From Brevibacillus choshinensis (GTDB taxonomy: Bacteria; Bacillota; Bacilli; Brevibacillales; Brevibacillaceae): DNA of 64,000 nt. The stretch spans positions 3,819,001 through 3,883,000 of the forward strand of contig NZ_CP069127.1 of NCBI RefSeq assembly GCF_016811915.1, read 5' to 3'. The position numbers were made by a program, and so were the translations under genes. Below are positions 1-11,740 of this stretch, one piece after another. The notes below the pieces were generated by a model. The model saw only the letters and a list, made by a program, of their open reading frames with translations, was not told where the DNA came from and did no database searches. Position 1 is the first letter of the stretch. Each line of letters starts with the position of its first letter.

Positions 1-308
1 GAAATGCCATTGATCCGTTTGAGTATCAGGTAACCTTCTTCCGCATGATAGCAGATCGGAAAGGACTGGGTCTCTCCCAGCTTGCGATACACCTCTACTT
101 CTTGTTCCCAGCCTGGTCGGCCAGGTGCATACAGCTTGATCACGAGGCTCGGATAATCCGGATGGGCAAACACCGCGGCATAGTTTCCTGTGCCTACCAG
201 CTCCCAGGGGTAGGGTGTATGCAAGACAACGACAGGATCATCAGGCGATTGGCTCTCGACCTTGACCTCCTGCAAAAAGCTTTGCAAAACGTGTTGATCA
301 ATACGCAT
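1..308 (-). CDS. Protein kinase-like protein, N-terminal lobe (partial)
   Basis: The reading frame starts at an ATG at 308 on the minus strand and runs off the left edge, so about 102 residues are visible. The translation holds a glycine-rich loop (GTGNYAAVF), an alanine-less VIKLY strand with the expected ATP-binding lysine, and a following glutamate-rich helix (EQEVEVYRKLG). This is the layout of the small lobe of a serine/threonine or aminoglycoside-type kinase. The catalytic loop lies outside the window, so activity and substrate cannot be judged. It follows the terminator of the glucan operon on the same strand and is probably a separate unit. The family assignment is inferred from motifs only. 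Confidence 0.6.
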   Translation of the reverse strand, partial: MRIDQHVLQSFLQEVKVESQSPDDPVVVLHTPYPWELVGTGNYAAVFAHPDYPSLVIKLYAPGRPGWEQEVEVYRKLGETQSFPICYHAEEGYLILKRINGI

Positions 309-414: not shown

Positions 415-1839
415 TTATACATTCACTTCCAAAAACCAGTCACGGATAGATTCTTTCAGCTTTTCGAGAGCTGTCGCGCTCGTCGCCTCGCAATAAATGC
501 GCACGAGCGGCTCTGTGCCGGATGGCCGAATCAGCACCCAGTGTCCTTCGTCGAGCATCAGCTTGATCCCGTCTACGCGGTTGACTTCCCGCACTCGAAA
601 CGGTCCGACCTGCTTCGGCGGGAAAGACACCATCTCGTGAATCCAGCGGTCTTTTTCCGGCAGCTGGATATCCAGACGCGTGTGGAACAGCTCCCCAAAC
701 AAATCGTACACGTCCCGTAAAATCTGATCGATCCCTTTTTCCTCTACCGCGCACATCTCGGCCAGGAGCAGGTTGATCAAGACGCCGTCCTTTTCCGGAA
801 TATGCCCGAGAATGCTCGCACCCCCGCTCTCTTCGCCCCCGATCAGGACGTCACCCTGGAGCATTTGCTCGCCGATGTACTTGAAACCGACAGGCGTCTC
901 AACCAGTTCAAGCCCATACGCCGCTGCCATTCGATCCAGCAGATGGGTCGTTGCAACGGTGCGCACGATCCTGCCCGACAGCTTGCGGTTTTTGACCAGA
1001 TGGTAGGTAAGCAGTGCGAGTACATCGTTTGGCGGTACGTACTGCCCGAAGCGGTCCACGACCCCGAAGCGATCGGCATCGCCATCATTGGCGAGACCAA
1101 GCGATGCTCCTCGGCTCACGACTTCTTTTTTCAGCAGGGCGAGATGCTTGTCATTCGGCTCAGGCAGATCCCCACCGAAAGCGGCATCCACTGTTTCGCG
1201 AATGCCCACGTTTTTGACTCCTGCCTCCGAGAGCAGCCCGCTGACATACCCCATGCCTGCTCCATGCATGGCGTCTACGACGACTTCCAGAGAAGAGTTT
1301 CGCAGAACATCCGTGTTGACCAGTCTGCGCAAATGGGCCTCGTAATGCGGGCGCAGCACGATGATCTGCAGCATTTTGCGGGACTTGGCTTCCTCCAGCG
1401 TCATGGTCCGAACATCGCCCGTTTCCTGGATTCTGGCAATCCATTCTTCCAACCGTTTGGTAATGACTGGCGTGGCGGGACCCGCGTAATGCGGAATGTA
1501 TTTCATTCCATTGTATTCCGGCGGGTTATGACTGGCAGTGATCATCACGGCACCGCTAGCTGCAAAATGCTTGACACCAAAGGCAACAGCCGGGGTTGGC
1601 GCCGCTTCATTCACCAGGTAGGTACGGATTTGATTGGCGGTCAAAACACGAACGACTTCCTCTGCGAACCTCCGCCCCAGGAATCGGGTATCGTGGCCGA
1701 CGAGGATCGCTTGCTCCTGCAGCCCCATTTCTTTCGTGTACGAGGCAATCGCCTGTGCGACGACTCGAACGTTCTCCATCGTAAATTCGTCAGCCACGAT
1801 TGCGCGCCAACCATCCGTGCCGAAACGGATCGCTCCCAT
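415..1839 (-). CDS. Phosphoglucomutase/phosphomannomutase family protein
   Basis: This 474-residue alpha-D-phosphohexomutase would interconvert sugar 6-phosphates and 1-phosphates in the cytoplasm. All four active-site signatures are visible: the phosphoserine loop TASHNP at residues 101-106 (Ser103), the metal loop DGDADR near 255, the sugar loop GEESGG near 335 and the phosphate loop RPSGTEP near 440. Unlike the fused mutase domain two genes upstream, this copy looks catalytically complete. It is the last gene of the operon, 19 bases after the GH15 gene, and is followed by a terminator. Its context suggests supply of glucose-1-phosphate or mannose-1-phosphate for polysaccharide synthesis. 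Preference for glucose, mannose or glucosamine cannot be read from the sequence. Confidence 0.9.
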   Translation of the reverse strand: MGAIRFGTDGWRAIVADEFTMENVRVVAQAIASYTKEMGLQEQAILVGHDTRFLGRRFAEEVVRVLTANQIRTYLVNEAAPTPAVAFGVKHFAASGAVMITASHNPPEYNGMKYIPHYAGPATPVITKRLEEWIARIQETGDVRTMTLEEAKSRKMLQIIVLRPHYEAHLRRLVNTDVLRNSSLEVVVDAMHGAGMGYVSGLLSEAGVKNVGIRETVDAAFGGDLPEPNDKHLALLKKEVVSRGASLGLANDGDADRFGVVDRFGQYVPPNDVLALLTYHLVKNRKLSGRIVRTVATTHLLDRMAAAYGLELVETPVGFKYIGEQMLQGDVLIGGEESGGASILGHIPEKDGVLINLLLAEMCAVEEKGIDQILRDVYDLFGELFHTRLDIQLPEKDRWIHEMVSFPPKQVGPFRVREVNRVDGIKLMLDEGHWVLIRPSGTEPLVRIYCEATSATALEKLKESIRDWFLEVNV

Positions 1840-1858
1840 TATCCTCTCTCCCCTCTCG

Positions 1859-3820
1859 TTACTGCAGCTCTTTCACCTTCTCCAAATAACGCAATACGGT
1901 AGCGACATACGTTGCATGTGACCAAGTCAGCGGAGCGACGGAAACAGGCGCTCCCGTGAAAGGATCGAGCTGCTCGGATAAGACACCGCTCTGCAGCGCG
2001 TGGCGGACGACCCAGGACAGCCTGCTCTTTGGCTCCTGCAGTTCGTCCAGCGACTTGGCTTTGGCTATCTCCCAATCTGCCACCCAGAGCGTGCAAATGA
2101 TCCACGGGTTGCCTGGCACCCTGGCCGTATCATGCGATTTCTTGAAATAATAGTCTCCCTGGTAGCGTGCAAATCCACCGATCTCCGTGTCCACTCGCAA
2201 GCTTCTCTTCACAGCCTCCATCGTGCTGGTCACGCGAGGATCGTCCACGGGCAGAACGCCAAATGCAAAAATCGAGAACAAGCTGCTTTCCACCGTAAAA
2301 TCTTTTTCCACATGACCGTCCTGGCGGATGTAGATTCCGCGCAAAAACCGGCCGATCTCGGGATCGTACAAATGGGAGAGCATCGCTTCCCGGATCCGCT
2401 CCGCCCCTTCGTCATAGCGCTTATAACGGCGGTCGTCCCCGAACAGCTGAGCAAACCTGGCAGCAGCCTTCAAACCGGCAAACACCGTCGCGCTCGTAAA
2501 GGTGAAGATGCCCCTGCGCTCCTCCCACAAGTCGTAGCTCGGTCGGGGAAGCTGATAGGCGGGCTCGATATACTGGAGTAAGAAGCGTGCAGCGGGACGC
2601 ACGAGTGTCGGATACAGCGCCTGACAATCCTCGAGCTGCTTTCCGCTTTTGTATTGCTCCCACAGAGCGTGCAGGACCAGCGCCGTTTCATCCTCCTGAA
2701 TCGGCAGCTGCATTTCTCCATCAACGATATACGGATGCCAGCTCGAACCGACCGAGCCATCCGGGTTGTACTTGTGCAGCAAATAGCCATCATCGTTTAA
2801 GGCATCCGCGCAAAAGTGGAAGAAGGGCGCAACGGTAGCGGTGTAGCCCGCCTTTGCCATGGCGCAAGCAATCAGCGCTCCATCGCGCGGCCACATATAG
2901 CTGTAATGATCCCGATTGAATTGGAGAATGTCAGAATCATTGGCCGCCAAGATCGCGCCGTTCTGGTCAATCTGGGTGCGCACCAGCAGCAGGCTGGTTT
3001 TGTAAAGTTCGACGACCTCGGGAGACAAATCGGCAAAATCCCGCTCTTCCTTGTTCACCCACCGCTGCCAATACACGCCCACTCGATTCAGCAGCCGCTG
3101 CGGGTCGCTTTCCAGAACATATTGATTCAACGACTTTACCGCATCGTAGGAATCGCCGATGCACAACCAGTACTCGAGGGATTTCTCCTCTTGCGGCCCC
3201 AGCATTAACCGAAAGGAAATGGTGCTGTCTACGGAGCCTTGGGCGATCGGATTGCCGGAGAGAATCCCGTCCTCCGCATCCCGCCACGTCCCTTCCGCAT
3301 AATTGAATCGCTTGATTCCCACGCTGTACTGATCGATTCCACCTTCTGGCGTTCGGCCGTTGACCATGATGTAGACATTTCGCTTGTAATGATAGACCGC
3401 GTTCAGCATGGGATCGAAGACGGCCGTATCGCCTACCTCTGTCTCATTGATGCTGAGATCGTGATTGAAAAACACCCGCACTTCCCGATGTTCACTCGTG
3501 AGGTTGCGCACCCTGATTTGCTTCAGGTATATCGGGTCCCGCTGGTGAACACCATCTGCTATCCGCAGGGAGAGACCGAGCCCCTCATGCTGGGCATAGA
3601 CGTCCGTCACCAGCGATTCTTTGCTGTAACCAAGGGTTCGTTTCCATCCTTCTTCATCCAGCCAGGAAAAGCGACCGGATGCCCATATCCCCAGCTTGCT
3701 GAAGTGCCCCCCCACATGATTGAGCTGCCCCACATAAGGATAGTAGAGATCGCGCATGTGAAGCCTGTCGTCAAAGTTGATCAGCAGTCTTCCATTTCCG
3801 ACCACGAGCGGTCTCGGCAT
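1859..3820 (-). CDS. Glycoside hydrolase family 15 (glucoamylase-like)
   Basis: The protein has 653 residues from the ATG at 3820, which is preceded by AAAGGA and avoids overlap with the gene upstream; a longer frame reaches 3862. The N-terminal third looks like the beta-sandwich domain of bacterial GH15 enzymes. The rest is the (alpha/alpha)6 barrel, with the MWPRDG substrate-binding motif. Catalytic acid candidates are in DLWEERRG and, near the C terminus, in EQLDPFTGAPVS just before PLTWSHA. No signal peptide is visible, so it acts inside the cell, probably releasing glucose or trimming an alpha-glucan or glucodextran. It lies between the nucleotidyltransferase fusion and the phosphohexomutase. 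Trehalase-type activity is also known in this family, so the substrate is open. Confidence 0.85.
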   Translation of the reverse strand: MPRPLVVGNGRLLINFDDRLHMRDLYYPYVGQLNHVGGHFSKLGIWASGRFSWLDEEGWKRTLGYSKESLVTDVYAQHEGLGLSLRIADGVHQRDPIYLKQIRVRNLTSEHREVRVFFNHDLSINETEVGDTAVFDPMLNAVYHYKRNVYIMVNGRTPEGGIDQYSVGIKRFNYAEGTWRDAEDGILSGNPIAQGSVDSTISFRLMLGPQEEKSLEYWLCIGDSYDAVKSLNQYVLESDPQRLLNRVGVYWQRWVNKEERDFADLSPEVVELYKTSLLLVRTQIDQNGAILAANDSDILQFNRDHYSYMWPRDGALIACAMAKAGYTATVAPFFHFCADALNDDGYLLHKYNPDGSVGSSWHPYIVDGEMQLPIQEDETALVLHALWEQYKSGKQLEDCQALYPTLVRPAARFLLQYIEPAYQLPRPSYDLWEERRGIFTFTSATVFAGLKAAARFAQLFGDDRRYKRYDEGAERIREAMLSHLYDPEIGRFLRGIYIRQDGHVEKDFTVESSLFSIFAFGVLPVDDPRVTSTMEAVKRSLRVDTEIGGFARYQGDYYFKKSHDTARVPGNPWIICTLWVADWEIAKAKSLDELQEPKSRLSWVVRHALQSGVLSEQLDPFTGAPVSVAPLTWSHATYVATVLRYLEKVKELQ

Positions 3821-3833
3821 GCCTTCACGTCCT

Positions 3834-6212
3834 TTATTGGTATTCAGCGATGCGCTTCGCATAGGAGGAAGCGAGCGTCGCCGCAGTCTCAGCTGTCGCT
3901 CCTTGGGAAATGACCTTCACGTGAGAATCTTCCGTATCTGGCAGAATCAACACCCAGCCATTGGCATCGTACACCTTGATTCCGTCGACCAGCTCCAGCA
4001 GCTTTCCTTTGTTCTCCTCGAGCATTTTCCGCATCACTTTCCCCTTGGATCCCCACGGGCAAAAAACAATCTTCTTCTCCATATGGCAGGCAGGCAGAAG
4101 CGCCAGCAGAACACTGAGCGGCTTTTCTTCCTTGGCCAGGTAGGAAAGGAGGCGCAAGAGGCTGTACACTGCATCAAACATCGGGTGGAATCGCTCTTCG
4201 GACGCTACCTCCATCATCGCGCGCGGCGCTACCTTGGTCCGGACTACTTCCAGCTGCAGCAGCTGGGCGAGGTGCTCCAGCTCCATCGGTGCGCTGACGG
4301 GAAGACCGATTTTGTTGTGGATCCCACTGCAAGCCAGCAATTGAAGAGCCAGCACTTGTTCAGGTGAGAGTTTTTCTCCATGCTCGGAGAACAAAGCGAA
4401 TTGCTCGCCATTTTTGTCCAGGCGAATGCCGAGATCTGCCCCATGCTTGCAGACCCCTTCCTGGATGGCTCCGTATTGAACGCTTACCCCCAACGAATGG
4501 AACAGGGGAGCCAAAAAAGCCGGCATGAAGCGAGGCTCGCATTCGATCAGCAGGCGGAAGCGCTGACGCTGGATGCTGGCCACATCGACCCGCTCCGTGA
4601 GGGCGCGCAAATACGCCTCCTGCACCTGATGCTCCACATGCAGCTCGCCCAGGTGATGCAAGGAGCGCACATACGTCTCCTGCCAATACGCATTTTCAAT
4701 CTTTCTCTCCATATCCCGCGAAACGGGCAGCCCCTCGTGATCGACGAACTGGATGACGATCTCTTTTTCTTCTGCCGGCTCTGCCATGTAGACATGGATG
4801 CCTCCTACGCATTGCAGACTGCGCACCCCGTATCGCATCAATGGCGAATTCCCGATGCCAAAGTCGACCGTATCGATACCGGATGAGCACAGACTCGTCA
4901 TGATGCTGTGCTTGAGCAGCTGGGCAAACGGGTGCGAGCACGCAGAGAGAGCAATCCGGCTGCCTGCCCGCAGCAGATAGGCATACGATGCTGCCAGCCG
5001 CGTGACAAATTCAGGTGTGACTTCCACATTTCCGATACCTTTGATCCCATTGGTACCAAACAGACTTTTCGACTGCTTGGTCCCGTAGATCAACGAAGTC
5101 GTAACGGTTGCACTCTCGCCGATTTCCTTGTCCGGCCAGATCTTCACGCCCGCTTTTACCACTGACTTCGAGGAGAGCCTGCAATTGTCACCGATGACGG
5201 CTCCCTCCCCCAGCAAGACGGATTCGCCGACCTGGACATTTCGGCAGAGAGTCGTCCCAGCGATTTCGGTCTTTTTGCCCACCATCGTATTTTCCCAGAC
5301 GATGGCTTGGGAGAGCTTGGTGCCTGAGGATACGACTGTGTTGGAGCCGAGAATCGAGTAGGCACCGACGGCGACTCCAGCCTGAAGATGCACGTTTTCC
5401 CCGATGTATACCGGCCCTTCCAGCCGCACGGAAGAGTCAATGCGCACATGGCTTTCCAGGAAGATGCGCGGCGCGATCTCCTGTGCTTTGATCTGTAATT
5501 GAACTTTGCCGTCCAGCAAATCGAATTGTGCCTGGCGATAGATTTCCAGCGATCCGATGTCAGACCAATATCCCTCGGCTGCATAACCGTACATCGGTTT
5601 GCCTTCACCGAGGAAGTACGGGAACACTTCTTTACTGAAATCTACCTCGCGATCATTATCTATATAAGAGAGCACTTCCGGCTCGAACACGTACATCCCC
5701 GTGTTGACCATGTCGCTGAATACCTCAGCCCAAGTCGGCTTTTCCAAAAAACGATTGATGAGTCCGTTTTCGTCCGTCATCACGACGCCGAATTCAAGCG
5801 GTGTCTCTACTTGAGTCAAAATCAGCGTCGCAAGAGCCTCTTTTTCTTCGTGAAAGCGTACGGCTGCGGACAGGTCGATGTCCGTCAACGTGTCCCCACT
5901 GATGACGATAAACCGTTCATCGAGGAAGTCTGCGCAATTCTTCACACTTCCTGCCGTTCCCAGAGGAGTCGTTTCCTCAAAATAGACGAGAGACACGCCA
6001 TACCGCGAGCCATCCCCGAATTCATTGCGAATGGCTTCCGGCAAATACTGCAAGGTCACGGCAATTTCCGTGATGCCATGCTTTTTCAGAAGATCGATGG
6101 TGTACTCCATGCAAGGCCGGTTCAGCAAAGGCACCATTGGTTTTGGAGTGTGGGAAGTCAAAGGTCGCAGACGGGTTCCCTTACCGCCAGCCATGATCAC
6201 TGCCTTCATCAA
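3834..6212 (-). CDS. Sugar-1-phosphate nucleotidyltransferase fused to degenerate phosphomannomutase domain
   Basis: This 792-residue protein starts with a nucleotidyltransferase domain (about residues 1-235) with the signature AGGKGTRLRPLT, as in GDP-mannose or ADP/UDP-glucose pyrophosphorylases. A left-handed beta-helix of hexapeptide repeats follows (about 250-360). The C-terminal 410 residues begin with FGTNGIKG, like a phosphohexomutase, but where the catalytic TASHNP loop should be there is only a GGIHVYMAEP stretch without the serine. The mutase domain is therefore probably inactive or regulatory. Similar fusions are known in actinobacteria and cyanobacteria. In this operon it would make the nucleotide sugar donor for the GT4 enzyme encoded just upstream. 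Which nucleotide sugar is made is not determined. Confidence 0.85.
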   Translation of the reverse strand: MMKAVIMAGGKGTRLRPLTSHTPKPMVPLLNRPCMEYTIDLLKKHGITEIAVTLQYLPEAIRNEFGDGSRYGVSLVYFEETTPLGTAGSVKNCADFLDERFIVISGDTLTDIDLSAAVRFHEEKEALATLILTQVETPLEFGVVMTDENGLINRFLEKPTWAEVFSDMVNTGMYVFEPEVLSYIDNDREVDFSKEVFPYFLGEGKPMYGYAAEGYWSDIGSLEIYRQAQFDLLDGKVQLQIKAQEIAPRIFLESHVRIDSSVRLEGPVYIGENVHLQAGVAVGAYSILGSNTVVSSGTKLSQAIVWENTMVGKKTEIAGTTLCRNVQVGESVLLGEGAVIGDNCRLSSKSVVKAGVKIWPDKEIGESATVTTSLIYGTKQSKSLFGTNGIKGIGNVEVTPEFVTRLAASYAYLLRAGSRIALSACSHPFAQLLKHSIMTSLCSSGIDTVDFGIGNSPLMRYGVRSLQCVGGIHVYMAEPAEEKEIVIQFVDHEGLPVSRDMERKIENAYWQETYVRSLHHLGELHVEHQVQEAYLRALTERVDVASIQRQRFRLLIECEPRFMPAFLAPLFHSLGVSVQYGAIQEGVCKHGADLGIRLDKNGEQFALFSEHGEKLSPEQVLALQLLACSGIHNKIGLPVSAPMELEHLAQLLQLEVVRTKVAPRAMMEVASEERFHPMFDAVYSLLRLLSYLAKEEKPLSVLLALLPACHMEKKIVFCPWGSKGKVMRKMLEENKGKLLELVDGIKVYDANGWVLILPDTEDSHVKVISQGATAETAATLASSYAKRIAEYQ

Positions 6213-6237
6213 TACTTCCTCCCTCTGGGGTGTTTTT

Positions 6238-9087
6238 TCATGTGGCAGCCCACATCGTAGCGGTATTCAGCAAACGATAGTCTTCAGCCGTCTGCCGGGC
6301 AAGATGAGCCCAGTCATAACGTTGACGTACATCCTCCAGTGCCTGCTGTGCCAGCTGCTGTCGGATCATCGGATTTTGAAGCAGCCAACGCAATTGATTG
6401 ACCAATGATTCCACATCACCGGTATACATCATCGCTCCGTTCTCCCCATGTCTGACGATTTCGCGAAGCCCGCCCGTGTCCGCGACCAAAAGCGGCGTTC
6501 CGTGCGCCATCGCTTCCAGAGCAACGATCCCGAACGGCTCATACAGACTCGGAAAAACGGCTACATCGGCAAGGCGAAACAGCTCATTGCGTTTTTCATC
6601 CTCGACAAATCCGAGGAAGCGTACCTGATCAGCTATCCACAGGCGCCCTGCCAAGTCTTTCAGCTCATCCGCCTCTGGCCCCTTTCCTGCCACAACCAAC
6701 CGCAGATCAGGAAACTCCCTGCCAAGACGGGACACCGCCTCCAGCAACAAATGCACCCCTTTTTCCCGCACGAGTCTTCCGACAAAAAAAAGAATTGGGC
6801 CATCTCCCAAGGAGAGTTCCTGACGAAGGTCCGCACGCGGCCCGCTCGAACCCTCTGGCACTTCGACTCCATTGAAAATCACGCTGACTTTTTCACGCGG
6901 AATCCCGAACAATCGAACGACTTCCTCCCCCATGTAATGACTGCACACAATTACCCGGTCGGAGGCGGCTGTCAGCATGCGCTCGCTATCGTGAATCCTT
7001 TGCTGCAGCGGCGTATGAATGCCTTGATTTCGACCGTGCTCGAGCGCATGGATCGTCGTAATCAACGGGATGGACATTCGCTCCTTGATCTCCATAGCGG
7101 CCCATCCAACGAGCCAGTCATGGGCGTGAATGATGTCTACCTGCATGCCGTTTCGCCGCAAGTCTTCCACTGCATCCACCATCGCGAGGTTCAGTTGAAA
7201 TACCCATTGGAAAAAGTCTCCTTGCCCCATCCGGGCATAGCTGCTCAACCGATGCACATGAATCCCGTCGATGAGCTCTTGTCTCGCTGGTGAGTCACCT
7301 GCTCCTGTGAGGACATGCACTTCCTTCCCTTGCGAGGCGAGCTGTCGCGCCAATTCATACACGGCTCGACCCAGTCCGCCGACGACATGAGGAGGGAATT
7401 CCCAGCTGAGCATCAGGACTCTGGGCTGTGAATGCTCGGATTTGCTTGCCGCAACGAGTTGATGCGCTACGTTCACTCTATGCGAACGAAATGGCAAATA
7501 GTACGACTCATCCATGGCAGGGAATAGCGGGTAAGCAGTCTCCATTTCTTGCACGCGCGACAGGTCGATCTGACCCGTCTCGATCATGGCCAGGAGTTCA
7601 CGGAAGCGCACCAAGTGATCATGAAATCTGCGCACTGCATATTCCACGACCGTCTGACCATCCAGGATGAAGGCCCAATCACTGCTCTGCGCCAGCATCA
7701 GCTCACGTGCTGCCTGCTTCAGGCACCGGCTGACCGACTCGTCCTTGCCGGGCTCTTGCCCTTTTGCCAGCTCGCTATGCTGGACGGCCTCGATCAGCTC
7801 TCGTTCGGCCTGATGCAGATGCCGGTACATCCAGCCGTTATTCTCGTTTAGCCAAACTTCCCCGTAGCCATTTCTTCCCCACGTGGACATCGGCAGACGA
7901 GCCCGATCCTGAATCGGATACTGCGCCAAATATTCCGAGGGGGTGATCAATTCGACGCTCTTGGAATCGCACACGGTTTTCCGCATCAAATAATCCAGGA
8001 ACTGCGGCCCCTCGTACCACCAGTGTCCGAAGAGCTCGGCATCATAGGTAGCGACTACAAGCGGCTTGCGATCCAGCCAGCCTGAGGCTTCCTCGATCTG
8101 CTTTTCCCTGTGGGAGAGAAAGTGACCCGCATGGGAAGCTGCTTTTTCCTTTGCCCACTCCGGTACATACCAGTCTTTCTGTCCCTCTTTTCCCGTGATT
8201 CGGTAATACTTCAATCCCGTATTGACGCGAATGCCCTCCGGATGAATATAAGGCGCAATGTAGTCCATTTCACGGTCAAAGCCAATGTCTCGATAGTATT
8301 CACGATAATCGTAATCGCCTGGATATCCGTCGAATGAGCTCCACACCTGCCTGGAAGCTTGATCATCCCGCGCAAAAGCAGCTACATCATGCGGCGTATG
8401 CAGCGGGGCATACATGCCGCGCATGGACGTGGGTGTCGCGTGCTGGATCGTATGGCTGTCGACGAAGAAGTAATCAATCCCCGCCTCTTTCAGCAAACGA
8501 TCCAGTCCTGGCGTATACCCGCACTCGGGAAGCCAGATCCCTTTTGGGCGAGACCCGAGGATGCGCTCATGTGTATCGATACCGACCTGCAGCTGGGCGC
8601 GAATGGCCTCTTCTGTCTCCACGAATGGGAGAAACGAATGCGTGGCTGCGCACGTAATCAGCTCGACGCATCCACTCTCCTGCACCCGTTTCAAGCCGGA
8701 GATGAGCTGAAAGTCGTGCTTGCGGCAGTATGTAGCGATGGCCCGGAAGCGCTCGAGATACATCTTCGCGACACGATGCTCCCGCGGTTCCAGCACCGTC
8801 CGCTTCACCTCTTTTCCAGCCAGCTCGACTGTCTTTGCGAGATGTTTCTGAAAACGGGACAAAATGAGTTCATCTTCCAGCATGGATAACAACGTTGGGG
8901 AAACAGCAAGGGTCATGCGAAATGCAATGCCATCTGAAAGAAGCTTGTCGAAGACCATAAGCAGGGGAAGATAGGATTCCAGCATAGCCTCGTAAACCCA
9001 ACGCTCTTCAAGACAATCGTCCCGATCCCCGTGCCGCACGTAAGGCAGATGGGCGTGGAGCACGAGAGAGAGGTAACCGTTCTGCAC
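6238..9087 (-). CDS. GH57 1,4-alpha-glucan branching enzyme-GT4 glycosyltransferase fusion
   Basis: The frame opens at a GTG at 9102 directly after the previous stop, but GTGAGGTG as ribosome binding site favours the GTG at 9087 (949 residues, beginning QNGYLSLVLHAHLPYVRHG). The N-terminal 525 residues are GH57: HAHLPYVRH, GIWLPECGY with the nucleophile glutamate, and TYDAELFGHWW with the catalytic aspartate. From about residue 560 a GT4 glycosyltransferase follows: SWEFPPHVVGGLGRAVYELA, HAHDW, FVGRLVREKG and EPFGIVALEA (the EX7E motif). One polypeptide thus carries chain elongation and branching activities for an alpha-glucan. It is the second gene of the operon. Donor sugar and product are inferred only. 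Confidence 0.88.
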   Translation of the reverse strand: MQNGYLSLVLHAHLPYVRHGDRDDCLEERWVYEAMLESYLPLLMVFDKLLSDGIAFRMTLAVSPTLLSMLEDELILSRFQKHLAKTVELAGKEVKRTVLEPREHRVAKMYLERFRAIATYCRKHDFQLISGLKRVQESGCVELITCAATHSFLPFVETEEAIRAQLQVGIDTHERILGSRPKGIWLPECGYTPGLDRLLKEAGIDYFFVDSHTIQHATPTSMRGMYAPLHTPHDVAAFARDDQASRQVWSSFDGYPGDYDYREYYRDIGFDREMDYIAPYIHPEGIRVNTGLKYYRITGKEGQKDWYVPEWAKEKAASHAGHFLSHREKQIEEASGWLDRKPLVVATYDAELFGHWWYEGPQFLDYLMRKTVCDSKSVELITPSEYLAQYPIQDRARLPMSTWGRNGYGEVWLNENNGWMYRHLHQAERELIEAVQHSELAKGQEPGKDESVSRCLKQAARELMLAQSSDWAFILDGQTVVEYAVRRFHDHLVRFRELLAMIETGQIDLSRVQEMETAYPLFPAMDESYYLPFRSHRVNVAHQLVAASKSEHSQPRVLMLSWEFPPHVVGGLGRAVYELARQLASQGKEVHVLTGAGDSPARQELIDGIHVHRLSSYARMGQGDFFQWVFQLNLAMVDAVEDLRRNGMQVDIIHAHDWLVGWAAMEIKERMSIPLITTIHALEHGRNQGIHTPLQQRIHDSERMLTAASDRVIVCSHYMGEEVVRLFGIPREKVSVIFNGVEVPEGSSGPRADLRQELSLGDGPILFFVGRLVREKGVHLLLEAVSRLGREFPDLRLVVAGKGPEADELKDLAGRLWIADQVRFLGFVEDEKRNELFRLADVAVFPSLYEPFGIVALEAMAHGTPLLVADTGGLREIVRHGENGAMMYTGDVESLVNQLRWLLQNPMIRQQLAQQALEDVRQRYDWAHLARQTAEDYRLLNTATMWAAT

Positions 9088-9102
9088 CAAATGACACCTC
9101 AC

Positions 9103-9747
9103 TTATTGATTCGTTTTCGAGTAGAGGGAATACGAGGAAAAATTCTCAAACCACGCGGGGGTCGCCGGATCTTTGGCAGGCTCGATCAGTGGCTCTCCCC
9201 ATGCGGCCTTTGTATTTCGCGGTGTTTCCACCGGTTCTGAACGAAGAATCGGACAAAATCTTCCTTGCTCAAACAGACCAAAATCAACCAAATACGTGCG
9301 TCCAGGTTGAATGTCCCGTACATACCAGCTGCTCGCATCTTCGTTCACGAACACATCCTGTACGCGATGCGCATTGTGACCGTCAAAGATCCGATCCGTC
9401 ACATCGTAAATCCGTAGTCCCTTCTGAATATGCCGGTAATCCGATTGCAGATAGGAGGCTACCATCCTCATGCGCGGCCACGTGATTTCCCAGTACACAA
9501 ACAGGACAGTCGGCCCCTGTGCCATGACCTTCAGCAGATCGCGTCCATAAAACGCTGGCAGCCGCCAATCGCTCTCCTGTCGCCTTTTTGGCTGTTGCAG
9601 GGCGGAGGTGTGGTCATGGTCATTTGCCACCCGGGCTCTGTCCTTTTGCAGCTGGTACTTGACCTGACCGATGGTTAACCCGCACTCTTTTGCGATTTGT
9701 GCGATGGACTTCGATTGCGACCGTAGTTCGAGTATTTTTTCCAGCAT
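9103..9747 (-). CDS. DUF4912 domain protein with N-terminal helix-turn-helix-like segment
   Basis: This is the first gene of the glucan operon, 214 residues, with AAGGAG before its ATG. Residues 1-45 contain a resolvase-like helix-turn-helix sequence (SIAQIAKECGLTIGQVKYQL). After a charged linker, a DUF4912 domain (about 70-190) shows the typical LPAFYGRD, VFVYWEIT-like and YLVDFGL segments; this domain is thought to have an immunoglobulin-like or carbohydrate-binding-like fold. No enzyme motif is visible. Because it heads an operon for alpha-glucan synthesis, it could tether glucan or regulate the operon; both are guesses. The family name is fairly sure, the function unknown. Confidence 0.75.
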   Translation of the reverse strand: MLEKILELRSQSKSIAQIAKECGLTIGQVKYQLQKDRARVANDHDHTSALQQPKRRQESDWRLPAFYGRDLLKVMAQGPTVLFVYWEITWPRMRMVASYLQSDYRHIQKGLRIYDVTDRIFDGHNAHRVQDVFVNEDASSWYVRDIQPGRTYLVDFGLFEQGRFCPILRSEPVETPRNTKAAWGEPLIEPAKDPATPAWFENFSSYSLYSKTNQ

Positions 9748-10080
9748 TGTTGAACGCTCCTTCCCGACATGTTCCCGCTTTCTTTTGACAGCGGGTAATT
9801 CATTTTTGAATCAACACAATGACATCATAGCCAATGCCTAGAACAAAGACTGTCGAATGCTGGATGCACTTCCCTTCTTCTTTTGTCGATAAAGTATCAT
9901 GTTTTCGTCATTGAAAAACAATTCTCGAGGCCATACGAATGGAAATCGCTTTCACAAGTCGAACAACCGTCTATTTTTCATCTTACAAACGTGGCCTGAA
10001 TGAAATTCATTCCTTTATGAAATACACGTCGCCCATTTTCAAAAGCTGGATGAATGCAAGCGCTATCCTGATTCGAGCGA
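9748..10080 (-). promoter_or_regulatory. Upstream region of the glucan operon with Spo0A-box-like sites
   Basis: This 333-base stretch holds no convincing gene. Two sequences resemble the Spo0A box (consensus TTTGTCGAAAA): TTTGTCGATAA at 9882-9892, one mismatch, and TGTCGAA at 9851-9857. On the minus strand TATGAT (near 9820-9830) could be a -10 element, with the 9851 box near the -35 position, an arrangement like Spo0A-activated promoters. This suggests the operon is tied to the onset of sporulation, but short boxes like these also occur by chance. Confidence 0.4.
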
Positions 10081-10113
10081 CAAAAAGCCGATGCCCGTTT
10101 GTCCGGCATCGGC
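10081..10113 (-). terminator. Rho-independent terminator of the acyl-CoA ligase gene
   Basis: On the minus strand a perfect 9-bp stem GCCGATGCC/GGCATCGGC is followed by TTTTTG, 35 bases after the stop codon of the acyl-CoA ligase gene. Confidence 0.9.
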
Positions 10114-10147
10114 TCGTTCACCCTACTTCCTGTTTCCAGCATTTTTC

Positions 10148-11740
10148 TCAATTCACCATTCTGCCCTTTTCCTCCCAAAATGGCTGTCGCAGCTCTACCT
10201 TGCGTATCTTGCCGGACGCCGTTTTGGGCAGCTCGCTCACAAAGGTAAAGCCTTTCGGGCACTTGAATGCAGCCATTTTTCCCCGGCAAAAGCTCTCCAG
10301 CACAGCTTCCGTCAGTTCAGCTCCGGGACGGGGGACTACAATGGCGTGCGGTACCTCGCCCCACTTTTCATGTGGAACCGAAATGACGGCGGCCTCCAGG
10401 ACTTCAGGGTGCTCATACAAAAGTCCCTCTACTTCAATCGAGGAAATATTTTCTCCACCGCTGATGATGATATCCTTCTTGCGGTCGACGATGTCGATGT
10501 ACCCTTCGGCATCGATTGTCGCCATATCTCCTGTATGGTACCAGCCATTCACGATTGCGGCTGCGGTCGCTTCAGGCTGCTTCCAGTACCCTTCCATGAC
10601 CATGTTGCCGCGCGCGATGACTTCCCCGATGCTATGGCCGTCCTTCGGCACATCGTTGTCTTCATCATCGACGACGCGTATTTCCACATTGTGCATGGGA
10701 ATGCCCGCCTTCGCCTTCAAGCGGAATCTGCCCTCCTCGCTCTCCTGTGCCAAATGATGCTTGATCGGGGATACCGTAATCAGCGGGGCACATTCCGTCA
10801 TCCCGTACACCTGCAAAAACTCCCAGCCTAATTGCTGTTCCACCGTCCGGACAAACGCTGTCGGCGGCGCAGATCCGGCGATGACCACACGCATCGGCCC
10901 TGTCGTTTTCTCCTCCCGAAACCGCGGCTCATTGATCAGCATATTCAGCACCGTCGGGGCCATGCAGGCTACCGTGACTCCTTCCCTCTGCATCAAGGAA
11001 TGAATCAGCGCAGGATCAATCTTGCGCAGCATGATGTGCTTGGCTCCCACTCCCGTAAAGGAAAACGGTGTTCCCCAACCATTCACATGAAAAATCGGAA
11101 GCGTATGCAGCAGGACGTCACTGTCGGCAGCCCGCAGATGGAACATCGTATTTTGCATGTTGAAATACAGTGTCCGGTGCGAGTGCATGACTCCTTTCGG
11201 CTTGCCTGTCGTACCGCTCGTGTAGAGGATGGTGGCCAGATCCGTCTCTTCAATCTCATGAATGCACGGCTCCGTGCTCTCTTTGGCCAGTAAGTCCGGA
11301 TAGGCAACCCAGCCTTCGCGCTCGCTCACCAGACCATCCACTGGCATAGAAACAAGCTGTGTCACCGTCGTGAAAGACGGAATGACCGACTCTACCAAAG
11401 GAATAAGTTCGTCGTCTGCAAAAAACAGCTTGGCTTCCGCGTGCTCGATGATATACAAATAGTCATGCGCCAGAAGTCTCGTATTTAACGGAACCACTAC
11501 CGCCCCTAGCTGAAAGCAGGCGTAGAACAATTGCAGCATTGCGGCGGTATTCGGGGATAGGACGGCTACCCGATCGCCTTTCTCCACGCCCAATCTCTTC
11601 ATGGCATGCGCCAATTGATGCACTTCATCCTGAAACTTTCGATACGTCCAGCGACGTTCACCTTCCACGATAGATTCTACGTCCGGATAAAGCAAAACGG
11701 CTCGACGCAAGGTATCATCCATCCGCAAAGCTACATGCAT
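10148..11740 (-). CDS. Acyl-CoA synthetase (AMP-binding, fatty-acid--CoA ligase family)
   Basis: The protein has 530 residues from the ATG at 11740, which follows AAGGGAA at good distance; the frame is open to 11803. It belongs to the adenylate-forming superfamily: the P-loop-like TILYTSGTTGKPKGVMHSH, the YGMTECAP loop, the YHTGDMATID motif, the hinge DRKKDIIISGGENISSIE and the C-terminal lysine in KTASGKIRK are all present. It would activate a fatty or other carboxylic acid to its CoA thioester via an acyl-adenylate. It looks like medium- or long-chain acyl-CoA ligases of Bacillus. It stands alone between its terminator and the MFS gene. Chain-length preference is not readable. Confidence 0.9.
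   Translation of the reverse strand: MHVALRMDDTLRRAVLLYPDVESIVEGERRWTYRKFQDEVHQLAHAMKRLGVEKGDRVAVLSPNTAAMLQLFYACFQLGAVVVPLNTRLLAHDYLYIIEHAEAKLFFADDELIPLVESVIPSFTTVTQLVSMPVDGLVSEREGWVAYPDLLAKESTEPCIHEIEETDLATILYTSGTTGKPKGVMHSHRTLYFNMQNTMFHLRAADSDVLLHTLPIFHVNGWGTPFSFTGVGAKHIMLRKIDPALIHSLMQREGVTVACMAPTVLNMLINEPRFREEKTTGPMRVVIAGSAPPTAFVRTVEQQLGWEFLQVYGMTECAPLITVSPIKHHLAQESEEGRFRLKAKAGIPMHNVEIRVVDDEDNDVPKDGHSIGEVIARGNMVMEGYWKQPEATAAAIVNGWYHTGDMATIDAEGYIDIVDRKKDIIISGGENISSIEVEGLLYEHPEVLEAAVISVPHEKWGEVPHAIVVPRPGAELTEAVLESFCRGKMAAFKCPKGFTFVSELPKTASGKIRKVELRQPFWEEKGRMVN

Follow-up and report, generated by a model that had tools for sequence, protein, structure and literature searches.

A five-gene Brevibacillus operon around a GH57-GT4 fusion as a candidate route to a cytoplasmic branched alpha-glucan

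In a 64,000-nucleotide stretch of the Brevibacillus choshinensis genome (NZ_CP069127.1; hereafter the window), we propose that the five genes at positions 415-9747 make and break down a cytoplasmic, glycogen-like branched alpha-1,4/1,6-glucan through a GT4 glycosyltransferase and not through the classical GlgC-GlgA-GlgB-GlgP route, a reading to which we assign a probability of roughly 0.63. The reactions, sugar donor, product and regulator proposed here are drawn from observed gene content, catalytic motifs, searched absences, gene associations, low dN and a conserved promoter element. In the proposed route, an intact phosphohexomutase would supply glucose-1-phosphate, and a nucleotidyltransferase, whose inactive mutase domain perhaps has a regulatory role, would convert it to NDP-glucose. 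Within a fusion protein, the GT4 half would then lengthen alpha-1,4 chains, while the GH57 half would cut segments and re-attach them as alpha-1,6 branches. A DUF4912 protein, FN3-like and probably non-catalytic, may aid glucan binding or assembly by GH57, and a GH15 hydrolase would free glucose where no phosphorylase was found. In family members of Brevibacillus the operon has a conserved promoter that looks Spo0A-controlled, and its role may therefore lie in the transition to sporulation. If this proposal is right, some bacteria without the classical glycogen genes still make glycogen by means of GT4 and GH57, and the role of GT4 enzymes beside glucan genes, flagged as needing clarification in the available text of a 2024 review (PMC11046441), becomes testable in one fused protein.

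Gene content and catalytic residues of the operon

All five open reading frames of the operon described by the first-pass annotation were found on the minus strand with close junctions (Table 1). In gene order from DUF4912, these measure 0 nt, 25 nt, a 29 nt overlap and 19 nt, a spacing as in a putative single transcription unit. Given the overlap with the nucleotidyltransferase gene, GH15 may start later than called. Across 28 domain comparisons dN was 0.06-0.35, with dS at 1.3-3.5 or not computable (9/28); in every domain of the module dN is low against saturated dS.

Table 1. Features of the operon and its upstream region, in positions of the window
Feature	Position	Strand	Basis
DUF4912 protein	9103-9747	-	Pfam PF16258, E 5.9e-30
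GH57-GT4 fusion, 954 aa	6238-9102	-	ORF and Pfam domains
GH57 half with BE_C	7438-9102	-	catalytic pair E193, D354
GT4 half	6241-7437	-	E-x7-E motif, HAHDW
Nucleotidyltransferase, 792 aa	3834-6212	-	NTP_transferase and degenerate phosphohexomutase-like domain
GH15 glucoamylase-type hydrolase, 667 aa	1859-3862	-	GH15 domain match
Complete phosphohexomutase, 474 aa	415-1839	-	PGM_PMM I-IV, all four catalytic motifs
Conserved upstream element CGACAAAAGAANAA-N18-TCGACA	9851-9888	-	conserved in family loci
TGACGAA, Spo0A-box-like	9904-9910	-	53 bp from opposite-strand TGTCGAA at 9851-9857
TATGAT, possible -10	9824-9829	-	21 nt after TCGACA (9851-9856), read by eye

The fusion protein matched the Pfam models for GH57 (PF03065, E 1.3e-44), BE_C (PF09210, E 1e-29) and GT4 (E 1.9e-48). 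The GH57 catalytic pair, E193 (GIWLPEC) and D354 (YDAELF), is invariant in seven aligned sequences, and the GT4 E-x7-E motif, E855...E863 (YEPFGIVALEAM), accompanied by HAHDW at 659, is retained in each of 12 aligned GT4 sequences. In the predicted structure of the fusion (pLDDT 89.2), residues 7-538 compared with Thermotoga maritima AmyC at Z 47.4 (43% identity across 510 aligned residues), and residues from about 558 to 949 with MshA at Z 46.7 and GlgM at 42.7. By sequence, AmyC is also the solved chain closest to the GH57 half (639.7 bits), and GlgM (PDB 6TVP, E 3.2e-34) and MshA are the best solved matches of the GT4 half, whose nearest solved relatives also include sucrose-phosphate synthase and BshA. 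The GH57 half has the family barrel, in which Glu is the nucleophile and Asp the acid, together with the BE_C helical domain; the GT4 half carries the GT-B fold and E-x7-E of GT4 retaining glycosyltransferases. The protein is predicted to be an AmyC-type GH57 branching enzyme joined to a GT4 glycosyltransferase, with the catalytic residues of both halves intact. For AmyC, branching activity has been measured, according to the available text (PMC6616209). The solved GT4 chain tll1591, labelled "with alpha-glucan", was considered as a glucan synthase and set aside, since the paper that names it describes, in its available text, a glucosylsucrose synthase (PMC9909042).

The nucleotidyltransferase matched NTP_transferase (E 2.2e-57), which together with left-handed beta-helix repeats occupies residues from about 1 to 375, and PGM_PMM domain I (E 3.4e-19). 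The mutase motifs TASHNP, DGDxDR, GEESG and RPSGTEP were intact in none of 26 compared fused domains, that of the window included, and the idea of a second intact mutase was rejected. Some of the 26 rows are gapped at the motifs and a few keep part of DGDxDR, such as the final DR in loci L055 and L073. The best curated model for the nucleotidyltransferase was mannose-1-phosphate guanylyltransferase, at 253.9 bits below its cut-off of 440, and its best PDB match was a UTP-glucose-1-phosphate uridylyltransferase.

In the GH15 protein (Pfam E 3.9e-34; best structure match, a glucoamylase), E447 and E630 take the alignment positions of E438 and E636, the catalytic residues of a bacterial glucoamylase (1LF6), and the catalytic residues of GH15 are, by this alignment, intact. 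Of what the first-pass annotation had read from these genes, the GH15 hydrolase, the complete phosphohexomutase and the notion that one protein could couple chain extension and branching are supported; its nucleotidyltransferase with a fused mutase domain is indeed a fusion, but the mutase part is degenerate.

In the model of the DUF4912 protein, three N-terminal helices (residues 2-42) form an HTH-like region, and an FN3-like beta-sandwich spans residues about 69-177, with AlphaFold2 pLDDT of 91-98 for residues 61-180, a best Foldseek E of 1.3e-6 and VIA-align Z of up to 10.3 to FN3 domains. Because the model is a small FN3-like sandwich, the protein is probably non-catalytic and a role as an enzyme unlikely, although a shared fold shows no function. 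In a search whose query contained no DUF4912, evaluated for the best 80 of 588 confirmed GH57 matches, 70 of 76 evaluable loci from many phyla had a DUF4912 gene at most 600 bp upstream of the gene for an AmyC-type GH57 enzyme. Three of the 70 neighbours score weakly (L117, 31 bits; L129, 49; L126, 52), and Thermotoga maritima has a DUF4912 match at E <=0.001. In the literature searched, DUF4912 is seldom named and no mention of COG3330 was found. The link of DUF4912 to AmyC-type GH57 across phyla and its FN3-like fold are new, and DUF4912 gains from them a concrete partner and a fold.

Classical glycogen genes and the nature of the product

The 6.17-Mb genome was searched for GH13, GT35, GlgA and GlgC. 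No match to GH13 (PF00128) was found, so the genome encodes no recognised GlgB, GlgX, GlgE or TreS, and GT35 phosphorylase gave no match here or in any of 36 genomes of the Brevibacillus family. GlgA reached at most 82.7 bits (cut-off 328), in the fusion itself, and GlgC at most 131.3 bits (cut-off 424.9), in this operon. By these searches, the claim that glgA, glgC and glgP are missing holds genome-wide. A GlgM-GlgE route was rejected, since the genome has no GH13 match for GlgE.

Other genomes present a different picture. The GlgA search covered 22 genomes. Fourteen of them are known to carry the fusion (nine from a first set and five more), and in 8/14 GlgA exceeds its cut-off alongside it; GT35 matched in six of the nine first-set fusion genomes, at full length in three. 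Because both coexist with the fusion in many other genomes, the fusion need not replace GlgA or GT35, and where GlgA and the fusion occur together the fusion system must do something else or something extra. The first-pass proposal of an operon that makes, branches and degrades an alpha-glucan is upheld in part: intact GH57, GT4 and GH15 residues, low dN, the gene associations and the lack of classical glg genes speak for it; not upheld are an intact mutase on the nucleotidyltransferase, a fusion peculiar to this genome and a fusion that must replace the classical enzymes.

This coexistence also bears on a reading that we regard as unlikely, in which the product is a short, dedicated alpha-gluco-oligosaccharide or glycoconjugate on which GH57 sets one or a few branch points and GH15 trims. 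If the fusion made a second glucan that is not a storage compound, its presence beside GlgA and GT35 would be accounted for, and a similar role is proposed in the available text for mycobacterial Rv3031/Rv3032 in methylglucose lipopolysaccharide synthesis, the closest published GH57 and GT4 pair lying in the MGLP cluster (PMC2674218). Against it, a domain search found no methyltransferase or acyltransferase domain among the five genes, and in the genome itself the searches for GH13 and GT35, and for GlgA and GlgC above cut-off, found none.

Less probable still, the GT4 half could transfer a sugar other than glucose, or act on a spore-coat or surface acceptor, to give a decorated alpha-glucan that is not a storage compound. 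GT4 is a broad family whose specificity is not readable from sequence, and we know of no activity for the GT4 clade of the fusion; the best-scoring mannose model of the nucleotidyltransferase half and the hint of sporulation control in the promoter also favour such a product. Against it, the structures best matched are a branching enzyme for the GH57 half and a glucoamylase for the GH15 protein, and no export or membrane protein family was found in the domain search of the five genes.

Distribution, gene loss and the promoter element

A fusion-length frame is present in 23 of the 36 family genomes and GH57 BE_C is absent from 13 of the 36; further Bacillota hold the fusion too, and it is not peculiar to this genome. 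The counts over many loci draw on the best 80 of 588 confirmed GH57 matches and lean to close relatives of the window GH57. Within these, an NTP-pseudomutase gene occurs in 18 of the 22 loci with a close GT4, fused or not, and in one of the 58 without (Fisher 3.7e-13, with related loci treated as independent). In family loci, the fusion and GH15 are present together in 10/10 and both absent in 8/8 (Fisher 2.3e-5, with the same treatment of related loci). These associations, which are new, support links between NTP-pseudomutase and GT4 and between the fusion and GH15. Second fused copies (L147-L151) carry no NTP-pseudomutase or GH15 in the stretch examined; they were left out of the association counts and the tree, as were eleven weaker GH57 frames from the tree. 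The genome of L091 shares its phylum with the genomes of the Thermincola, Carboxydocella and other Bacillota loci (G071, G068, G080, G081, G084).

Behind the same promoter element, family loci are reduced to DUF4912-NTP-PGM-mutase (L028, L029, L034), DUF4912-remnant-mutase (L143), DUF4912-mutase (L035, L036, L144) and the mutase alone (L142), where the element persists. Such a series of natural gene losses could be used to test which parts cooperate. In a further reading, the locus would chiefly be a phosphohexomutase gene under regulation, with the glucan genes as a dispensable or decaying passenger. This would fit the stepwise loss and the mutase kept in all eight reduced loci, but is very improbable: dN is low in every domain where the module persists, fusion-length frames are held by most family genomes, L038 keeps the glucan genes while the 5 kb that follow contain no mutase, and no close mutase accompanies the glucan genes of L051, L054, L056 and L065.

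The promoter element, another new observation, resembles paired Spo0A boxes. At least one TGNCGAA, the Spo0A box consensus, was found in 17/18 family rows, and a pair 53 bp apart in 11/18; for these counts the gene starts of L030, L033, L035, L037 and L143 were set by hand, and L145 and L146 were excluded as chance resemblances to the element with none of the locus genes nearby. The 21-nt arrangement before the possible -10 TATGAT may be like that of Spo0A-activated promoters. Outside the family there was no excess of boxes: other Bacillota loci had 4, with 3.7 expected, and the remaining loci had 3, with 6.1 expected. A sigma-70 scan restricted to 16-18 nt spacers, and so unable to reach a 21-nt promoter, gave 4 sites against 5.9 in shuffles and none in 9748-10148, and Rfam gave no known RNA match at E <=1 in 9400-10400, ahead of the operon. 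The sporulation link raised by the first-pass annotation thus gains a Spo0A-box-like element within the family but stays circumstantial. We put forward only tentatively, and with some doubt, the fuller view of a distinct bacterial glycogen pathway combining the GT4-GH57 fusion, a nucleotidyltransferase that feeds it and has a dead mutase domain as regulator, an FN3-like DUF4912 partner and a GH15 drain in place of phosphorylase, turned on by Spo0A as sporulation begins.

Comparison with known glucan systems

The operon would share its product class and intracellular role with the classical GlgC-GlgA-GlgB-GlgP system, whose GH13 GlgB, GT35 and over-cut-off GlgA and GlgC were not found in this genome. 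A GT4-GH57 fusion is not described in the available text of PMC11046441 or PMC8790579, and may still have been published. The GH57 half is like AmyC (PDB 2B5D), but the AmyC chain (528 aa) has no GT4. GlgM, the alpha-maltose-1-phosphate synthase that best matches the GT4 half among solved chains, feeds the GH13 enzyme GlgE, and this genome has no GH13 match. In Archaea (Picrophilus, Methanoculleus), GT4 genes lie beside GH57 or GH13 glucan genes and are not described as fused in the available text of the 2024 review, which speculates that, where GT3 and GT5 are missing, as in Methanoculleus, a GT4 may be a glycogen synthase yet to be characterised (PMC11046441).

From their published description, the mycobacterial Rv3031/Rv3032 pair may be the comparable system: in the available text, the GT4-type alpha-1,4-glucosyltransferase Rv3032 lengthens an alpha-1,4-glucan and shares a gene cluster with the potential GH57 branching enzyme Rv3031 (PMC2674218, PMC6686919). 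The mycobacterial cell also has GlgM, GlgE and a GH13 GlgB (PMC11046441, PMC6629080), whereas the Brevibacillus genome has no GH13 match. Rv3031 and Rv3032 are separate genes in a methylglucan cluster; in Brevibacillus the two functions would be fused, and are accompanied by GH15, the NTP-pseudomutase and DUF4912.

Operon layout and encoded proteins

The five-gene operon on the minus strand (415-9747) is real and conserved, and its predicted role is most likely that of a GT4-GH57 glycogen-like glucan system. The genes are transcribed in the order DUF4912, GH57-GT4 fusion, nucleotidyltransferase with a mutase-like domain (NTP-pseudomutase), GH15 and phosphohexomutase, and the junctions calculated from coordinates are 0 nt, 25 nt, a 29-nt overlap and 19 nt. 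Pfam backs the domain assignment of every one of the five genes; none scored over its cut-off among the NCBIfam rows listed. No signal peptide was noticed on the operon proteins on inspection by eye. Where the glucan module is retained, dN was 0.06-0.35 against a dS of 1.3-3.5, pseudomutase included (28 comparisons, with dS not computable in 9).

For the GH57 half of the fusion the best match is T. maritima AmyC, at 639.7 bits and, in structure, a Z of 47.4 with 43% identity across 510 residues; residues E193 and D354 are unchanged across the seven sequences aligned. Glycogen-branching activity has been measured for AmyC, and its hydrolysis was relatively high (PMC6616209). The GT4 half carries the E-x7-E motif (E855, E863). 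Its nearest sequences are GlgM and MshA, a likeness that fixes neither donor nor acceptor, as is also true of the fold comparison (MshA, Z 46.7; sucrose-phosphate synthase, Z 45.2; GlgM, Z 42.7). The structure model of the fusion reached a pLDDT of 89.2 and a pTM of 0.60; because the linker at 539-557 is of low confidence, the relative placement of the two halves is not given by the model.

For the nucleotidyltransferase half, the top PDB match was UTP-glucose-1-phosphate uridylyltransferase and the top model mannose-1-phosphate guanylyltransferase, under that model's cut-off. Its C-terminal mutase-like domain has none of the four catalytic motifs intact, nor have the 25 other such domains compared, in an alignment with gaps in some rows and the second motif partly retained in a few; all four are present in the separate operon mutase. 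GH15 has two glutamates aligned with E438 and E636, the catalytic glutamates of the bacterial glucoamylase 1LF6. The DUF4912 model shows an FN3-like sandwich preceded by helices at the N terminus (pLDDT 91-98 over 61-180; Z up to 10.3). A short-type DUF4912 copy occurs in all 36 family genomes, as counted from the match list. The small protein encoded after the mutase has weak kinase-like matches (Bud32 and NleH models, E ~1e-3, far under cut-off), and its gene still adjoins the mutase in reduced loci, e.g., L028, L029, L034, L143 and L144.

The source genome is one contig of 6,166,741 bases. Our search of it covered GH13, GT35, GlgA and GlgC; it gave no GH13 or GT35 match, and neither GlgA nor GlgC models scored above cut-off. 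Within the family (group f1, 36 genomes with the source genome counted in), GT35 was found in none and GH13 in five. A GH13-less genome of 6.17 Mb is unusual, given a GH13 match in 13 of 14 control genomes. The sole match in the source genome to BE_C, the helical domain of GH57 branching enzymes, is the one in the operon.

Distribution and origin of the fusion

Of 60 relatives, 27 have a BE_C match; 23 of the 27 belong to the 36 family genomes, and all 23 frames there, at 884-1012 aa, are similar in size to the fusion. Searching the species-genome collection yielded at least 588 confirmed matches, the best 80 of which entered the multi-locus analysis. Nine of these 80 loci contain the fusion: Brevibacillus, two Paenibacillus, Alicyclobacillus fastidiosus, another Alicyclobacillaceae, and MAGs of Pelotomaculum, Thermincola, Desulfoscipio and an unnamed Firmicutes. 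Among the same best 80 of at least 588, 76 loci have enough upstream sequence, and in 70 of them DUF4912 precedes GH57 by no more than 600 bp; at one locus it is downstream (L080), at one it occupies a different frame that overlaps that of GH57 (L098), and at four it was not found (L101, L102, L106, L122). A close GT4 (>400 bits) is present at 22 of these 80 loci and a more distant one at 11. The NTP-pseudomutase gene accompanies 18 of the 22 loci with a close GT4 vs 1 of the 58 others, and GH15 is within reach at 6 of 22 vs 2 of 58; gene absences are soft, since many contigs are short.

Second, fused copies (L147-L151) occur in five genomes whose compared loci are unfused (G065, G068, G076, G079, G095), with DUF4912 just upstream in four of five and neither NTP-pseudomutase nor GH15 in any, within the stretch retrieved. 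An unfused AmyC-type GH57 together with a separate fused copy was also seen in G071, G142, G149 and G150. Given this coexistence in several genomes, the functions of the two forms may differ. The contig of locus L091 is labelled as an Actinobacteria MAG, yet its GH57 groups with Peptococcaceae and the phylum of its genome includes the Thermincola and Carboxydocella genomes of our set; the record is therefore probably mislabelled. In that phylum, 5 of 44 BE_C-positive genomes have strong matches in 935-974-aa frames, each plus an unfused copy.

In a rapidly built GH57 tree with 87 rows, which leaves out the second fused copies, the 16 fused rows (two of them, L039 and L040, with broken or partial GT4) need one change vs 14.9 with shuffled labels. 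With a branch support of only 40, this fits a single origin of the fusion and does not prove it. At L040 (9886-12087), GH57 is joined to just the first part of GT4, and at L094 (10004-13093) it lies within a 1029-aa frame whose tail is weakly GT4-like and of a different kind.

GlgA scored over cut-off in 12 of 22 genomes searched, including 4 of the 9 in the initial fusion count, and in 8 of 14 fusion-holding genomes once the second fused copies were counted. GT35 matches, many of them partial, were found in 25 of 35 genomes and in 6 of the 9 first-counted fused ones. Beyond the Brevibacillus family, the fusion thus often stands alongside classical glycogen genes, so that storage as its sole role is less well supported there.

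Upstream element and gene loss in the family

Features of the locus, and gene content of the family loci marked by the shared upstream element
Feature	Location	Remark
Promoter element with paired Spo0A-box resemblance	window 9824-9910	conserved in the family at this locus
Gene following the mutase	window 3-308, minus strand	runs off the window; 213-240 aa in relatives
Second, shorter DUF4912 gene	G000:C1:3936796-3937104	source genome, ~108 kb away, outside the window
All five genes	window, L025, L026, L027, L030-L033, L037	
All except mutase	L038	no mutase within 5 kb after GH15
DUF4912, NTP-pseudomutase, mutase	L028, L029, L034	
DUF4912, remnant, mutase	L143	
DUF4912, mutase	L035, L036, L144	
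Mutase alone	L142	

The sequence CGACAAAAGAANAA-N18-TCGACA is conserved upstream of DUF4912. When up to two mismatches are allowed, 36 of 60 relatives have it (35 of the 36 family genomes and one outside); the two-mismatch matches were not used, because a reversed control pattern, also at up to two mismatches, had matches in 14 genomes. With zero or one mismatch, it occurs once per genome in 32 family genomes. It lies 155-510 bp ahead of the operon-type DUF4912 match in all 28 family genomes having that match, heads the reduced loci L142-L144 in G012, G028 and G030, and is present in G027 (L145), where no locus gene was found.

The element contains TTCGACA, and TGACGAA lies 53 bp off on the opposite strand; the Spo0A box is TGNCGAA. 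This 7-mer is not in excess across the whole window (55 vs 47 expected); at least one lies no more than 300 bp from the first gene in 17 of 18 family rows (expected 0.12-0.38 each), and the 53-bp pair recurs in 11 of 18. No excess was seen outside the family (4 vs 3.7 expected in Bacillota loci, 3 vs 6.1 elsewhere). TCGACA is followed after 21 nt by TATGAT, an arrangement that resembles Spo0A-activated promoters such as spoIIG. Since the element persists at L142, which has neither DUF4912 nor any of the glucan genes, its primary role may lie with the mutase.

The fusion and GH15 are jointly present in 10 of 10 and jointly absent from 8 of 8 family loci. Where both are gone and the NTP-pseudomutase is kept (L028, L029, L034), its parts show 45-53% identity to those of the window and the mutase 71-74%; this difference would fit looser constraint on the donor-making enzyme once GT4 was lost. 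At L030 the GT4 reading frame is broken in an otherwise complete operon, possibly an early loss step or a sequencing error.

Relation to known glucan pathways

The closest published arrangement we found is the mycobacterial pair of Rv3031, a GH57, and Rv3032, an alpha-1,4-glucosyltransferase to which a part in MGLP, glycogen and capsular glucan is ascribed (PMC2674218). A survey describes Rv3032 as an alternative glucan-elongating enzyme of wider spread than GlgA (PMC6686919), and a 2024 review raises the possibility that GT4s encoded close to glucan genes in archaea are glycogen synthases (PMC11046441). By analogy, the operon would work like an Rv3032-type GT4 pathway. The aspects that most merit follow-up are what the GT4 half does, what part DUF4912 plays alongside GH57, and the candidate Spo0A control. 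In contrast to such GT4 pathways, the Brevibacillus family is without GT35 and the source genome without GlgA over cut-off, and this operon adds the fusion, a pseudomutase-linked nucleotidyltransferase, DUF4912 and GH15.
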